Positions 3,428-53,501 of a stretch of 64,000 nt of DNA are shown here, piece by piece. Source of the stretch: Pontibacillus chungwhensis (lineage in GTDB: Bacteria; Bacillota; Bacilli; Bacillales; BH030062); the NCBI RefSeq assembly GCF_030166655.1, contig NZ_CP126446.1, positions 3,410,001 to 3,474,000 of the forward strand, read 5' to 3'. The first letter of the stretch is position 1; each line of letters opens with the position of its first letter. Below the pieces are notes generated by a model. The model had not been told where the DNA came from. It worked only from the letters and a program-made list of their open reading frames with translations, and made no database searches. Both the position numbers and the translations under genes were made by a program.

Positions 3428-4162
3428 TTAGTTTGCGAGCCAATTACTGATCAGTTCAACCGTCTGATCTCGCTGCTTTTCGCCTGAAATGGTTGCTTTT
3501 TGGTCCCCTTCTTGAAACCCATAGCTACCAAATTGACCGTGGTTCGCTCCGCCTAAGTCAATATAGGTATGATCTTCCGGTACGTAATTTTTTCCTTCTT
3601 TATATTTCTCGCGGTTCATTACCCCATCGTTCTCTCCTGTGATCGACAAGAAAGACAAGTCCGTGCCACTAAGGTCACCGCCTTCATCCGGGTAAGCACC
3701 AAGTAAAAAGATGCCTTCAAGGAGATCTTCATGTTCCGCAGCGTATCTCGCCGCCATGGCTCCACCTAATGAATGTCCCCCAATGACGTAAGAGCGATTC
3801 CCCTTTTCTTCTATTAACTCATCTGCCTTATCTTGAGCCAGCACGGCCAAATTAAGAGGCATCTTCAAAATGTAAGTCGGATACCCGTTTTCAGCAAGCT
3901 TATGAGCCAACGGAGCATAACTCTCTGGCTCCACTAAACCACCCGGATAGAAAAGAATGCTCGTGTCTTCCGCTTCTGTTGGAAGAAAGGAAATCCAGTC
4001 GCCCTTTTGCTCTACATCTATTTCATTTGTTCCTTTCATAGCTTCAATCGCTACTTGTGTGGGTTCATAAGGCTGTAAATAAACATACCCTGCAATCCCA
4101 ACGGCTATAACAAGAACGCCTAACAAGGCTAAGAGCTTTTGCCACCACTTCCACTTCTTCAT
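3428..4162 (-). CDS. Membrane-anchored alpha/beta hydrolase
   Basis: A 244-residue enzyme of the alpha/beta hydrolase fold (dienelactone hydrolase-like). A basic N-terminus (MKKWKWWQK) followed by LLALLGVLVIAVGIAGYVYL anchors it with the catalytic domain outside the cell. GGHSLGGAMAARYA contains the nucleophile Ser; ITGENDG supplies the likely acid and GGANHGQFG the His, completing the triad. The substrate is unknown. An ATG 69 bases further upstream is possible, but the chosen start has a GTAGGTGG ribosome site and begins directly with the signal anchor. It faces the CPBP protease gene divergently. Confidence 0.82.
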   Translation of the reverse strand: MKKWKWWQKLLALLGVLVIAVGIAGYVYLQPYEPTQVAIEAMKGTNEIDVEQKGDWISFLPTEAEDTSILFYPGGLVEPESYAPLAHKLAENGYPTYILKMPLNLAVLAQDKADELIEEKGNRSYVIGGHSLGGAMAARYAAEHEDLLEGIFLLGAYPDEGGDLSGTDLSFLSITGENDGVMNREKYKEGKNYVPEDHTYIDLGGANHGQFGSYGFQEGDQKATISGEKQRDQTVELISNWLAN

Positions 4163-4290
4163 CACGCCACCTACTCTGTGTTGTTTTGTTACCAGCTTAT
4201 CACAGAAACAAACCTTTTTACTGTCCCACACTCCCTTATGTTCAAAATAACACTTTTAGTGTAAAATGTAACTAAAAAGGAGTTGGTACT

Positions 4291-4947
4291 ATGAATCGGG
4301 CCAAAATCGTCGTTGGGACCTCTTTTCTTGTTAGTCTGTTTCTATATATCTTCGAACAAGGTATCGGCATGCCTTATCCGGTAAAAACAGCTGTTAAACT
4401 CCTCTTGTTCATCGGAGTCCCTTTTCTATTCTATGCGTACTTCCCTAAACCACATCTGAAAAAGAAAAAAGAACAATGGAAATCTCCACTGCTCTTCGGC
4501 ATTGTAGCGTTTGTTGTTCTCCTATGTAGTTATTGGCTAACGAAAGATCTGATTGATTTTACAGAAATACGATCTTATCTTAAAAGGGACCTTGGCATAA
4601 CACCTACAACCTTTTATGCTGTCGGGTTTTATATCATTCTCGGTAACTCTTGGATCGAAGAATGGTTCTTCCGGGGTTTTATCTTTCAAAACCTTCTATC
4701 CCTTGGTAAAAGACGGATTGGATATGTATATTCGTCAGGTTTATTTGCGTTGTACCATTTAGCAAGTATTCAAGGGTGGTTCTCTCTTCCCCTTACACTG
4801 GTGGCACTTGCAGGATTGTTTGGCATTGGCATGTTTTTCTCTTTCTTAACGGAGAAGGCAGGAACGTATAAAGGATCTTGGATAGTCCACATGATCGCCG
4901 ATCTTGCTATTATACTTATTGGGTTACATGCCTTCGGTTGGTACTAG
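4291..4947 (+). CDS. CPBP family intramembrane glutamic endopeptidase
   Basis: A 218-residue polytopic membrane protein of the CPBP (CAAX protease, bacteriocin-processing) family. It has about six hydrophobic segments. The three signature motifs are present: IEEWFFRG (E-E-x-x-x-R), ALYHLASIQGW with the motif-2 His, and SWIVHMIAD with the motif-3 His followed by Asp rather than the more usual Asn. Members cleave substrates inside membranes, but the substrate here cannot be inferred. AAAGGAG precedes the ATG. The stop codon overlaps the 3' end of the lipoprotein gene on the other strand by four bases. Confidence 0.85.
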   Translation: MNRAKIVVGTSFLVSLFLYIFEQGIGMPYPVKTAVKLLLFIGVPFLFYAYFPKPHLKKKKEQWKSPLLFGIVAFVVLLCSYWLTKDLIDFTEIRSYLKRDLGITPTTFYAVGFYIILGNSWIEEWFFRGFIFQNLLSLGKRRIGYVYSSGLFALYHLASIQGWFSLPLTLVALAGLFGIGMFFSFLTEKAGTYKGSWIVHMIADLAIILIGLHAFGWY

Positions 4948-39619: not shown

Positions 39620-39727
39620 TTAATATTCGCTCCTTTTACCAATACTCCGATTCAGTTGCCTACAATAATGGTATACCCAAGAATCCCTTAATGTACGCTA
39701 GAGATTTTGAAGGGATGTGCCCCTTAC

Positions 39728-40092
39728 AAAAGCGGAAGGGCCCGTTTATCCCCGACCAGCTTAAGTCAAACTGCGAAATGAAGCGATTTTCTTCATGCAG
39801 CAGTTGGACTTAAGACCTCGAGGGGATGGGCCCTGCAGCTAGACGCTACCCAAAAGCGGAAGGGCCCGTCTATCCCCGACCAGCTTAAGTCAAACTGCGG
39901 AATGAAGCGATTTTCTTCATGCAGCAGTTGGACTTAAGACCTCGAGGGGATGGGCCCTGCAGCTAGACGCTATCAAAAGCGGAAGGGCCCGTCTATCCCC
40001 GACCAGCTTAAGTCAAACTGCGGAATGAAGCGATTTTCTTCATGCAGCAATTTGACTTAAGACCTCGAGGGGATGGGCCTTACAACCACGCT
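39728..40092. repeat. Three tandem class 2 palindromic repeats in the glpD leader
   Basis: Full copies begin at 39728, 39852 and 39975 (period 123-124 bases), each starting AAAAGCGGAAGGGCCCG. Each folds on itself through GGGCCC/GGGCCC, TATCCCC/GGGGAT(A), CTTAAGTC/GACTTAAG and a TGAAG/CTTCA tip. The end motif AGCTAGACGC is present in the first two and degraded in the third. A partial copy of only the 3' end precedes the array at about 39702-39727. Copies are almost identical, so the expansion is recent. On the transcribed (minus) strand they lie between the GlpP-type terminator and glpD. Confidence 0.9.
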
Positions 40093-47655: not shown

Positions 47656-48804
47656 ATGAACAAAATTAACACACCTATTCAAATTCTACAATCTATAATT
47701 CCTTCCAAAACCTTAGAGGAGCGGTTAGCTCAAGATTATAATTTTGAGGAAAAAGCCAGGAAATTTTCCGCGATAGACCTTCTTCATTTCTATTTAGAAG
47801 CCGGCGTGAAGCGTTGGACTGGGTATCGTGAAGGATCCGAAACGCTAGTGGAACAGGGAGATTTTGAATCCCTGAATCACTCCACGATCTCTAAAAAAGC
47901 CCAAGAAGTCCCCTATGAATTCTTTAGAGATTTATTTCAAGAATTGCTTCAGCGATTAACAACATCCCAAAAGAAAAAATTCTTAAAAGACTATTCTCTG
48001 TTCGCGATCGACTCAACAACGATTACCTTCAGACACCAAACTAGGAGCTGGGCGAAATATCGAAAACATCTCTATGCGATTAAACTCCATACAGAATTTA
48101 ATATCGATCAAAAAATGCCCACCCATGTCTTCGATACCACAGGAAAAGATAGTGATATCATGATGGCACCTTTGATCTTCTTACATAAGGATTTTCCAGC
48201 TATTCGAGTCGCTGATCGAGCCTACGGAGCTAAGGATCTTTTGGATCAACTGAGCTCAGAGGAAAAGCCGTTTGTCATTCGTCTCAAAGCCGGGATCAAA
48301 CACGACGTTCAAAGTCACAATGAATTTGACTTTAATGAAGAGTGGCCTGTCGTAGCCGATTATAACGCCTTTTTAGGCGCAAAGAATACGCAAACTACGT
48401 ATACCTATCGAATCGTTACGGTTCCAAGCGAAACGGGTGAACCGATCTATTTAGCTACAAATGTAATGGATTTAAAGGCTGAAAAGATTTCAGAGGTCTA
48501 TAAAATGCGCTGGGAAATTGAACTATTCTTTCGGTGGATCAAACAAAACTTAGACATTCCAAACCCGTTTGGAATGTCTAAGAACAAGGTTTTAAGTCAA
48601 GTATATGCGACGCTAATCGCTTACCTGTTATTACGTTCCACTTTCAATGAAACGCAGCCTAAGTGGTCAACTTATACCAAACTTTCCTTCAAGGAATTCA
48701 CTCGAAAATTTATCAAAAGCACCCTTCCAATAGAAGTTGGTATCGAAATTGGGTTGCTTCTCAAAAATTGGCGAAGTGTATCCAATTCAACTGGTAAAAT
48801 ATAG
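47656..48804 (+). CDS. IS4-family transposase
   Basis: A 382-residue DDE transposase. The catalytic residues are the Asp in FAIDSTTIT, the Asp in VADRAYGAKD, and the Glu within the exact IS4 signature Y-x2-R-x3-E-x6-K, seen as YKMRWEIELFFRWIKQNL near residue 281. The N-terminal part with STISKKAQEVPYEFFRDLF is likely DNA-binding. The frame is intact. A 16-bp perfect inverted repeat lies within the coding region at 48549-48582. Confidence 0.95.
   Translation: MNKINTPIQILQSIIPSKTLEERLAQDYNFEEKARKFSAIDLLHFYLEAGVKRWTGYREGSETLVEQGDFESLNHSTISKKAQEVPYEFFRDLFQELLQRLTTSQKKKFLKDYSLFAIDSTTITFRHQTRSWAKYRKHLYAIKLHTEFNIDQKMPTHVFDTTGKDSDIMMAPLIFLHKDFPAIRVADRAYGAKDLLDQLSSEEKPFVIRLKAGIKHDVQSHNEFDFNEEWPVVADYNAFLGAKNTQTTYTYRIVTVPSETGEPIYLATNVMDLKAEKISEVYKMRWEIELFFRWIKQNLDIPNPFGMSKNKVLSQVYATLIAYLLLRSTFNETQPKWSTYTKLSFKEFTRKFIKSTLPIEVGIEIGLLLKNWRSVSNSTGKI
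48549..48582. repeat. Perfect inverted repeat inside the transposase gene
   Basis: CTTAGACATTCCAAAC and GTTTGGAATGTCTAAG are perfectly complementary over 16 bp with a 2-base loop. They encode residues around LDIPNPFGMSK just after the catalytic Glu region. Confidence 0.85.
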
Positions 48805-51711: not shown

Positions 51712-53382
51712 TTATAGCTCAGACTTCAGATCACGTAATAGATCGATTAAACCTCTCAAACCAGCTAACCCTTCGCCATTTTGACAAGTCGATCCACCGC
51801 CAGCATTTCCAGTTCCGTTCCCATTTCCATTAAACATAAAAGCTAAGATAGCTAGGATAAGAAACAGATTATTGTCATTATAAATGCGAATGTTTGGATT
51901 TCCGATATTCTCAAGCGTTAAGTCATCTTGGTTGTATTGGCGGTTTCGTTGGTCTTGTTCTTGATCCTGTTCCTGATCTTGTTCATTGTCCTGGTCGTTT
52001 TCTTGATCTTGATCGTTGTCCTGGTCTTGCTCATTGTCTTGATCATTTTCTTGATCTTGATCGTTGTCCTGGTCTTGCTCATTGTCTTGATCATTTTCTT
52101 GATCTTGATCGTTGTCCTGGTCTTGCTCATTGTCTTGATTATTTTCTTGATCTTGATCGTTGTCCTGGTCTTGCTCATTGTCTTGATCTTGGTCGTTTTC
52201 TTGGTCTACGTCCTGGTCGTTATCTTGCTCATTATCCTGGTCTTGGTCCTGATCGTTTTCTTGATCTTGATCAAAGTCTTGATCATTATCTACATCTTGA
52301 TCCTGATCCTGATCAAAATCCTGATCGTTTTCTTGATCTTGTTCGAAGTCCTGATCATTGTCTAATTCTTGGTCCTGGTCTTGATCTTGATCTTGGTCTT
52401 GATCTTGATCCTGATCTTGATCTTGATGCTGATCCTGATCTTGATCTTGGTCTTGGTCTTGGTCTTGATCCTGGTCTTGGTCTTGATCCTGATCTTGATC
52501 TTGATCCTGATCCTGATCTTGATCCTGATCTTGGTCCTGATCTTGATCTTGATGCTGATCTTGATCCTGGTCTTGATCTTGATCCTGATCCTGATCTTGG
52601 TCCTGATCTTGGTCCTGATCTTGATCTTGATGCTGATCCTGATCTTGATCTTGATCCTGGTCTTGATCTTGATCTTGATCCTGATCTTGGTCCTGATCTT
52701 GGTCCTGATCTTGATCTTGATGCTGATCTTGATCTTGGTCTTGATCCTGGTCTTGATCTTGGTCTTGATCCTGGTCTTGATCCTGATCCTGATCTTGGTC
52801 TTGATCCTGATCCTGATCTTGGTCTTGGTCTTGATCTTGATCCTGATCCTGATCTTGATCTTGAATCTGCTTTTGTTTCTGGTCTTGGTCCTGATCTTGG
52901 TCTTGATCTTGATCCTGGTCTTGATCCTGATCTTGATCTTGGTCTTGATCCTGATCTTGGTCCTGGTCTTGCTCTTGGTCCTGATCTTGATCCTGATCTT
53001 GGTCTTGGTCCTGGTCTTGATCCTGATCTTGGTCTTGGTCTTGGTCCTGGTCTTGATCCTGATCTTGATCTTGGTCCTGATCTTGGTCTTGGTCCTGGTC
53101 CTGATCTTGGTCTTGCTCTTGGTCTTGATCCTGGTCTTGGTCTAAATCAAATTCTTGATCATTTTCTAATTCCTGATCTTGATCCTGATCTTGATCCTGA
53201 TCTTGCTCCTGGTCTTGATCTTGATCTTGATCTTGTTCCTGCTCTTGCTCATTACTATTTTCTATTTCATTATCTAACTCATTTTCTTGTTCTTGCATTT
53301 GCTTCTGAATTTGCTTTTTGAGTTTTTCAAGCTCTGCTTCTAATTTGATTAAGTGAAGATCTTTATCAAATGACATATGCAT
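51712..53382 (-). CDS. Asp-Gln repeat protein
   Basis: A 556-residue protein of unknown function with an extreme composition. Residues 1-45 form a charged amphipathic helix (MSFDKDLHLIKLEAELEKLKKQ). About 330 residues follow that are almost only alternating D and Q, broken by single H, E or K. Next is a mixed D/Q/N/E region with F and V (NDQDFEQDQEND), including four 16-residue repeats. The last 75 residues differ: ENIGNPNIRIYNDNN, a hydrophobic stretch LFLILAILAFMF, a Gly/Asn-rich linker with one Cys, and a helix GLRGLIDLLRDLKSEL. There is no signal peptide. The ATG chosen is 5 bases after AAGGAG; neighbouring in-frame GTG and ATG codons are possible. It resembles a spacer between two attachment ends; a spore-coat or surface-layer role is speculation. 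Confidence 0.85.
   Translation of the reverse strand: MHMSFDKDLHLIKLEAELEKLKKQIQKQMQEQENELDNEIENSNEQEQEQDQDQDQDQEQDQDQDQDQDQELENDQEFDLDQDQDQDQEQDQDQDQDQDQDQDQDQDQDQDQDQDQDQDQDQDQDQDQDQDQDQDQEQDQDQDQDQDQDQDQDQDQDQDQDQDQDQDQKQKQIQDQDQDQDQDQDQDQDQDQDQDQDQDQDQDQDQDQDQDQDQDQDQDQHQDQDQDQDQDQDQDQDQDQDQDQDQDQDQHQDQDQDQDQDQDQDQDQDQDQDQDQHQDQDQDQDQDQDQDQDQDQDQDQDQDQDQDQDQDQDQDQDQHQDQDQDQDQDQDQDQDQDQELDNDQDFEQDQENDQDFDQDQDQDVDNDQDFDQDQENDQDQDQDNEQDNDQDVDQENDQDQDNEQDQDNDQDQENNQDNEQDQDNDQDQENDQDNEQDQDNDQDQENDQDNEQDQDNDQDQENDQDNEQDQEQDQEQDQRNRQYNQDDLTLENIGNPNIRIYNDNNLFLILAILAFMFNGNGNGTGNAGGGSTCQNGEGLAGLRGLIDLLRDLKSEL
51997..52188. repeat. 48-bp minisatellite, four units
   Basis: Units start at 51997, 52045, 52093 and 52141 and are nearly identical, differing at single bases (first base of unit 1; one GATC to GATT change at the end of unit 3). 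Each encodes 16 residues of the type ENDQDNEQDQDNDQDQ. Such identity in a codon-degenerate protein means recent DNA-level duplication. Confidence 0.92.
52366..53250. repeat. Hexanucleotide GAYCAR tract
   Basis: On the minus strand the tract is a chain of GAYCAR hexamers (Asp-Gln codons) with both codons of each amino acid mixed. His codons replace Asp at 52426, 52552, 52630 and 52720, all spaced by multiples of 6 bp. A short KQKQIQ interruption lies near 52863-52880. Neighbouring hexamers vary at the two wobble positions, so the tract is older or more shuffled than the 48-bp units. Confidence 0.9.
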
Positions 53383-53501
53383 GTTCACTCCTTATTCATT
53401 TATACGTTAATGTATGGGATTAACCGGAATGTGTAAGGGTGCATGCCTTGAGTCAAACAACCAAATCAAGGAACTTCTCCAAAAACACTGAGCTTGCCTA
53501 C

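Follow-up and report, generated by a model that had tools for sequence, protein, structure and literature searches.

The gene at position 51712..53382 on the minus strand of the window (by which we mean the whole 64,000-nucleotide stretch of Pontibacillus chungwhensis DNA that was analysed) codes for a protein in which an acidic residue and glutamine alternate over most of its length. By comparing this protein with relatives from the same order we could show that, judged from the sequences, the feature which is fixed throughout the family is a glutamine at every second residue and not the Asp–Gln dipeptide. The 21 genes probably represent a new family of low-complexity spore-coat proteins with the window gene as its extreme case. 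We consider it fairly probable that the gene product has a structural role in the spore coat or on the outermost spore surface; it would be made in the mother cell, and its core might form strands with a Gln face and an acid face.

The gene and its alternating core

The reading frame is open on the minus strand from a GTG at 53388 down to the stop codon ending at 51712 (558 aa). As this GTG overlaps the putative ribosome-binding site AAGGAG (53388..53393, minus strand), the real start is either the ATG at 53382, giving 556 aa, or the ATG at 53376, giving 554 aa, the latter being the start also found in the ortholog of genome G006 (see below). An uninterrupted gene with a ribosome site had been claimed in the preliminary description, and the ORF map together with the AAGGAG at 53393–53388 bears this out. 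Long plus-strand ORFs across the gene were rejected as composition shadows. No terminator was seen for the gene in a simple scan, and inspection by eye of the protein gave a single short hydrophobic stretch and no signal peptide. About 3 kb from the gene lies an ORF of 382 aa that is transposase-like (IS4-like by eye; 47656–48804, plus strand).

The alternating core (51949..53250, minus strand), which TRF reports as a tandem repeat, comprises 434 residues (47–480 in the numbering from the GTG), that is, 217 dipeptides without a single slip. An alternation of Asp and Gln over about 330 residues had been described before; the alternation stands, and its true length is 434 residues. The first phase consists of 183 D, 26 E, 4 H, 2 K, 1 I, and 1 N, so that an acid occupies 209 of the 217 places, all on one parity. 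The second phase consists of 187 Q, 21 N, 4 F, 3 L, and 2 V and never contains D or E. The core carries a net charge of −207, and the ends carry −5 and −2.

The DNA of the core holds 164 hexamers coding for DQ in all four spellings (GATCAA 64, GATCAG 43, GACCAA 36, and GACCAG 21). Adjacent hexamers differ at base positions 1–6 in 12, 2, 120, 55, 16, and 150 cases (transitions alone: 4, 0, 73, 11, 0, and 100), positions 3 and 6 being the wobble positions. The count of 55 at position 4 presumably reflects in large part the exchange of Q, N, L, F, and V on the second face. In the G006 ortholog the respective differences are 4, 0, 120, 80, 22, and 105; there the exchange of D and E adds to position 3 and the exchange of Q and N to positions 4 and 6. 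Because synonymous bases vary freely and the third codon positions are nearly randomised, selection acts on the protein. For the same reason the pattern is neither an effect of composition nor a repeat that arose recently in the DNA. The changes D to E and Q to H are equivalent, as each requires one third-base transversion. In the window 183 D and 26 E coexist, whereas the Q phase has 187 Q and no H (Fisher test, 3e-8, with the kinship of the units ignored), and in G006 there are 41 D and 116 E as opposed to 116 Q and no H (2e-11, kinship likewise ignored). Thus, the second face is kept as such, whereas on the first the acidic character alone is maintained.

These data also bear on a possible, though clearly less probable, alternative: at the same place and with the same timing, the core would be a disordered, swollen polyelectrolyte brush, in which the alternation is made by six-base slippage and only charge and length matter. 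The imperfect tandem units of 12 and 30 bases which TRF finds in the core would fit growth by slippage. On the contrary, the phase is held over 434 and 318 residues in the two orthologs, and D and E swap freely, whereas Q is never exchanged for H.

The ends of the protein and the ortholog in Pontibacillus

The N-terminus forms an amphipathic helix-like segment (53281..53382, minus strand) that contains LEAELEKLKKQIQKQ, is kept in G006 and resembles the LExxLxDILxQLQxQ of the relatives. Downstream of the core follow a LTLENIGNPNIRIYNDN motif with the short hydrophobic stretch LFLILAILAFMF (51832..51921, minus strand) and then a Gly/Asn linker with one Cys and a C-terminal helix-like tail (LRGLIDLLRDLKSEL; 51715..51831, minus strand). 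The proposal that two distinct ends frame a spacer agrees with their identity to the ortholog, 71% for the N-terminal and 84% for the C-terminal end, and with the similar layout of distant relatives. Relatives with conserved ends, whose absence had been named as the second of two points against the preliminary description, do turn up when the ends are searched by profile: the C-termini of the window protein and its G006 ortholog find relatives with E-values of 3.9e-8, 6.7e-5, 1.6e-4, and 1e-3.

The ortholog in G006 (P. chungwhensis BH030062) is an ORF of 428 aa in the same interval, and the gene order uvrA, alternating gene, DUF1806 (yojF), bshB2 is shared by both. Its core has 318 residues, with 116 E, 41 D, and 2 K in one phase and 116 Q, 32 N, 4 L, 4 S, and 3 F in the other, so that D is largely swapped for E. 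A search with the C-terminus finds the gene in two of eight Pontibacillus genomes; in the other six, and in G008, it is absent from the interval between uvrA and yojF. In G005 the DUF1806 protein shares 96% identity with that of the window; the interval there is short (a clean gap) and has neither such an ORF nor the promoter block described below. G001, G002, G003, and G007 carry at this place an ORF that is methyltransferase-like by eye. This patchy occurrence with the clean gap in G005 means that the gene is dispensable. Within its own genome the alternating segment matches only its own stretch at E-values of at most 10. Four weak matches in G002, G003, and G007 (E 0.04 to 1.65) are to other proteins, which do not have alternating Gln.

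The patchy presence, together with the fact that GAYCAR repeats are free of stops in several frames, could also be explained by a non-functional repeat ORF that is open by chance. We regard this as very improbable, as the variation is weighted towards the wobble positions, both ends and the promoter are kept in the ortholog, and the Q phase extends across the relatives.

Two side observations were made in these genomes. In G003 the same interval (locus L016, reverse complement 3840–4481) contains a stop-to-stop frame of 213 aa with repeats of ∼14 residues (ISVEAGVISEEVEL), a low-complexity frame which differs from the alternating gene, though it lies at the same spot. Furthermore, G003 (L031) and G002 (L033), which are other Pontibacillus species, encode acidic proteins that look secreted and consist largely of ADVDTNVEADVD-type repeats; this is another acidic low-complexity design, without alternating Gln.

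A family with glutamine at every second residue

The accepted family comprises 21 genes from 14 genomes and eight genera (labels of the tool), with some of the genes in tandem arrays. All 14 genomes belong to the order of the window, and none of the members accepted from 398 sampled genomes of the class lies outside this order. The members were collected with successive profiles, and the E-values of the later rounds come from profiles that already held relatives. Profile A1, built from the two Pontibacillus C-termini, matched 7 of 397 genomes of the order at E ≤ 0.01, with G191 (two tandem genes), G154, and G052 as new members; its matches in G036 and G264 were rejected upon reading the translation. 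Profile A3 matched 12 of 397 and added G275 as a weak member, and its six matches in G042, G115, G184, G189, G234, and G253 were dropped as non-members. In the family of G154, profile A5 gave 14 matches out of 159, eight of them accepted (G154, G519, G520, G521, G522 with six copies, G526, G538, and G539); G399, G455, G483, G489, G509, G536, and a second match in G539 were dropped. The same profile matched 1 of 24 and 1 of 35 genomes in the families of G191 and G275, in each case the genome itself alone. Profile A7 matched 13 of 397, of which seven were accepted, including G008 as a new member (2.8e-8), four (G036, G128, G174, and G349) were dropped and two, G118 and G145, were set aside as weak and do not count among the 21. 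The search of the class matched 6 of 398; G000 and G154 alone were accepted, and G128, G616, G766, and G849 were dropped. By translation the dropped loci consist of stops, membrane frames, or unrelated frames, and those of them that were checked again have no ORF of at least 60 aa with five alternating Gln. A pattern search confirmed 3 of 16 stretches, in Pontibacillus chungwhensis (G006), Bacillaceae bacterium SAS-127 (G191), and Oceanobacillus chungangensis (G154), which are the members of the family that carry names.

An origin from phages or plasmids was rejected, as tblastn searches of the window C-terminus against phages and of a G519 relative against plasmids gave no match and none of 64 pattern stretches in viral contigs was confirmed.

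When 20 members are aligned (all except G008), a common organization is found: the N-terminus, the segment LExxLxDILxQLQ, the (XQ)n stretch, D..FENxGNPxIxIKNE, a hydrophobic stretch, a polar/Gly linker, and the tail. The N-termini are often rich in Cys, His, and Tyr, and in several relatives in Cys and His. G191a and G522_6 have no C-terminal tail, and G275 has no GN(P) motif, which in G008 is replaced by NANN. The hydrophobic stretch has a strand-like (VA)n pattern in G539, G538, and G008. The window protein has the N-terminal segment followed by Q at alternate residues (here Q/N/F/L/V), features that were defined on the same genes, as well as the GN(P) motif, the short hydrophobic stretch, and the tail.

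In the 19 members from outside Pontibacillus the Q phase was measured over the zone from the first to the last QxQxQ, whose ends are thus chosen by Q. Q keeps its phase in 13 of the 19: in 11 of these it fills every place, in one 20 of 22 places, and in another 9 of 10. The alternate residue X in strict runs is most variable, with 31 L, 17 K, 17 A, 16 D, 14 Y, 12 G, 12 Q, 11 E, 10 N, 8 R, 7 W, 6 F, and rarer others. As the Q phase is filled and X varies across the relatives, Q is constant and X is free. Only the two Pontibacillus proteins have an almost wholly acidic X face, and the alternating stretches span about 19 to 434 residues across the family. These relatives also speak against the polyelectrolyte brush, as W, Y, L, F, and A are frequent at their X positions and no charged brush would result from such residues.

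The six tandem copies of G522 (L067, L076, and L078–L081) have two types of N-terminus that alternate along the array, and at one end of the array a stretch keeps the promoter block and the leader without an intact frame. The proteins of G118 and G145 (L115 and L117, matched on the minus strand) contain VHIENIGNxxVHVHID followed by a D/Q/N-rich sequence, with an NDNDND alternation in G145, and might represent another type of coat protein with alternating residues.

The promoter region

Upstream of the gene lies the putative promoter block ACCCTTACA-N15-CATACATTA (53408..53440, minus strand), which is kept between the window and G006 where the flanks diverged. The C of its −10-like element CATACATTA (53416–53408) is 34 nt upstream of the ATG at 53382 and 40 nt upstream of the ATG at 53376. 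The core CATANNNTA occurs within 100 nt upstream of 11 of the 21 genes, compared with 1.44 expected from a first-order simulation, the upstream regions not being independent, as ten stem from one genus and six of those from tandem copies. In the other ten regions the exact CATANNNTA is missing and hence is not a strict feature of the family: G191a, G526, and G275 have it one letter off at the same place, G052a has one-letter-off matches at −56 and −77 alone, G538 and G539 have CATATATAT at −92, and G191b, G052b, G522_4, and G522_6 have no CATA within 130 nt. Exactly 24 nt upstream of the CATA an ACCC is found in the window, G006, G008, G519, G520, G521, G526, and three G522 copies; at this position there is CCCC in a further, fourth one of the G522 copies, and ACAC and ATCC in G154 and G191a.

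The loose form CCCNNNCA-N15-CATANNNTR occurs once in the window, at this gene, with 0.05 expected; when two mismatches are allowed, shuffles of the window give 0.72 block matches on average. Three spellings of the block were tried, and the form CCCT-NN-CA-N15-CATANNNTR is the one that was counted, over the window plus 125 loci (511,047 bases in all, of which about 300,000 are distinct). It has 13 distinct sites: ten before family genes, one before the weak gene of G118, one where the G522 array ends in a decayed stretch, and one before a gene for a CotX protein (G029), the latter being the only site unseen when the pattern was framed on the genes that it scores. The promoter of G008, which has a G in place of the T, is not among the 13. 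The block occurs nowhere else in the loci, and a simulation of 1.95 Mb based on the window plus nine loci did not contain it at all; this specificity holds within the loci and not genome-wide, as the loci were fetched around family genes. In the CotX block the CATA is 37 nt from the start, which is the same distance as in the family. The other ten of the 11 CotX genes examined do not have the block, and one of them has CATANNNTA at −38.

For Bacillus subtilis one report gives GCATANNNTA as the −10 consensus of sigma-K and KCATANANTN as that of sigma-E (PMC3416734). CATANNNTA matches the former in its core, and many sites fit the latter. The −35 region fits poorly to the published sigma-K element KCACM with a gap of 14–16, with element lengths and gap as given in PMC517825. 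As the −35 region is off the sigma-K spacing, an activator is likely. Boxes for GerE and SpoIIID near −35 were weighed by their consensus and left out of the evidence.

Both sigma-70-like sites detected by a simple scan fall inside and downstream of the gene, and none lies upstream. This result bears on the assumption that the protein is made in vegetative cells, where it would be an acidic component of the surface or the cytosol and would buffer water or cations in a cell adapted to salt. The core net charge of −207 would suit such a role, and P. chungwhensis is termed moderately halophilic in the title of a reference. We nevertheless judge this improbable, as there is no signal peptide by eye, only one short hydrophobic stretch and no upstream sigma-70-like site in the scan, X is neutral or mixed in the relatives, and the −10 element is of the mother-cell type. 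A coat or surface role had earlier been offered as a guess, which the upstream block of mother-cell type strengthens; for the location in the spore coat, as for expression in the mother cell, our inference draws on the promoter, on the parallel with a single CotX gene, and on the fact that all members in the samples come from one order.

Comparison with known proteins

The statement that no named family has this design agrees with the scans of Pfam and NCBIfam, in which the window protein and 17 relatives (18 of the 21 members, G006, G275, and G522_6 being left aside) gave no convincing match. One set of weak matches lies entirely below the cut-offs, and few names recur between members. Weak matches of relatives, among others to Mis12, to Med1, to Peroxidase_2 (5 of 17 members, best E 9.7e-5), and to FliH (one member, best E 2.4e-5), were read as composition. 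The same applies to the MSCRAMM adhesins with SD repeats (SdrC, SdrD, ClfA, and ClfB), where the likeness consists of NCBIfam matches on the repeat with scores of 44–62 bits against cut-offs of 999–2500; unlike these adhesins, the window protein has no adhesin domain in Pfam and no wall anchor was seen. A search of the PDB with a profile of 17 members gave no sequence match. Literature searches on Gln-rich alternating spore proteins, Pontibacillus spores, and Asp–Gln repeats yielded nothing relevant by title, most subscription journals lying outside the literature covered.

Among spore proteins, the crust proteins CotX, CotV, and CotW are likewise from spore formers and likewise have a hydrophobic segment, and one CotX gene of 11 (G029) shares the promoter block. 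Homology to CotX was rejected, as hhalign of profiles A7 and A8 gave a probability of 0.3% and there is no match to Pfam Coat_X (PF07552). In addition, no (XQ)n stretch is present in 23 Coat_X matches, among the matches listed, and Coat_X is found in none of eight Pontibacillus genomes and in 9 out of 31 genomes that were searched. CotV assembles into filaments whose core is beta-structured (PMC12630357). CotB and CotG are repetitive coat components, and the serine-rich repeats of CotB are phosphorylated by CotH (PMC7821199). The family resembles them in having low-complexity repeats, and it differs in the alternation of Gln, which we did not see described for them in that source.

Spore coats also offer another role for the glutamines. 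They could be acceptors of the spore-coat transglutaminase, and the protein would then be a cross-linking substrate that glues coat layers, like GerQ in B. subtilis. The core provides nearly two hundred Gln, and a spore-coat transglutaminase acting on pre-assembled coat substrates is known (PMC6490927). We hold this explanation to be unlikely, as neither the strict period of two nor the acidic face would be required for it.

Proposed function

For the coat or surface protein with one Gln face and one acid face which we favour, the following arrangement is conceivable. Attachment or self-assembly would be the task of the two ends. Neighbouring side chains of an extended strand lie on opposite faces, so that Q at every second position would give one face made entirely of Gln. 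This face might form ladders of side-chain amides between stacked strands, leaving the other face free to vary. The variable face of the two Pontibacillus proteins is almost wholly Asp/Glu, and their stretch has grown to 318–434 residues. If the acidic face points outward, it could bind water and cations and give a dense, negative, hydrated, cation-exchanging layer, whose packing would depend on salt or on Ca/Mg: at low salt the charge of −207 would oppose packing and stacking, and the salinity of brine or calcium would screen it.

Both faces have counterparts elsewhere. In amyloid-type fibrils polar zippers are formed by Gln/Asn side-chain amide ladders between stacked strands; unlike there, half of the core residues are acidic here. 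The acidic matrix proteins of mollusc shells have alternating Asp-X with X being Ser or Gly and have been proposed to form a beta sheet with a cation-binding acidic face. They share the Asp at every second residue, whereas X is Gln in the window protein, and with organisms this unrelated the analogy is only one of how the proteins might work.

The Gln-face beta assembly is a hypothesis which structure prediction does not support. For a relative of 123 aa with 17 natural sequences AlphaFold2 gave a mean pLDDT of 50.6, which is low confidence, and predicted helices, not strands, at the start of the XQ stretch (12–47), in the hydrophobic stretch (78–95), and in the tail. The lack of a confident structure would also suit the disordered brush discussed above.

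Returning to the two-faced strand, a more far-reaching version, which we consider doubtful, is that the spore coats of bacteria use (XQ)n as a self-assembly code not recognised so far, with a constant polar-zipper face of Gln and a free face painted according to lineage, and with an acidic shell gated by salt or Ca/Mg in the spores of brine dwellers. If this were true, the free face would be aromatic, aliphatic, basic, or neutral depending on the lineage and almost pure Asp/Glu in Pontibacillus, where the acidic shell would pack in brine or upon drying and swell in fresh water. The family is a natural series in which one face is fixed and one is free, with many members under a shared promoter block. 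This series could serve to test Gln alternation as a coat builder, the residue-by-residue selection of low-complexity chains, and the tuning of the spore surface in halophiles. As a material for binding cations, too, a genetically encoded (Asp–Gln)n polymer as long as this one would be unusual.

A further repeat in the window

A second repeat was observed in the window between glpD and glpK (39727–40079, plus strand). A unit of 124 bases is present there 2.9 times with 97% matches. The unit has no Rfam match at the gathering score, and none was seen in the 125 loci by a short exact pattern. It folds as a long hairpin (−56.5 kcal/mol, z −7) and is possibly a mobile palindromic element.
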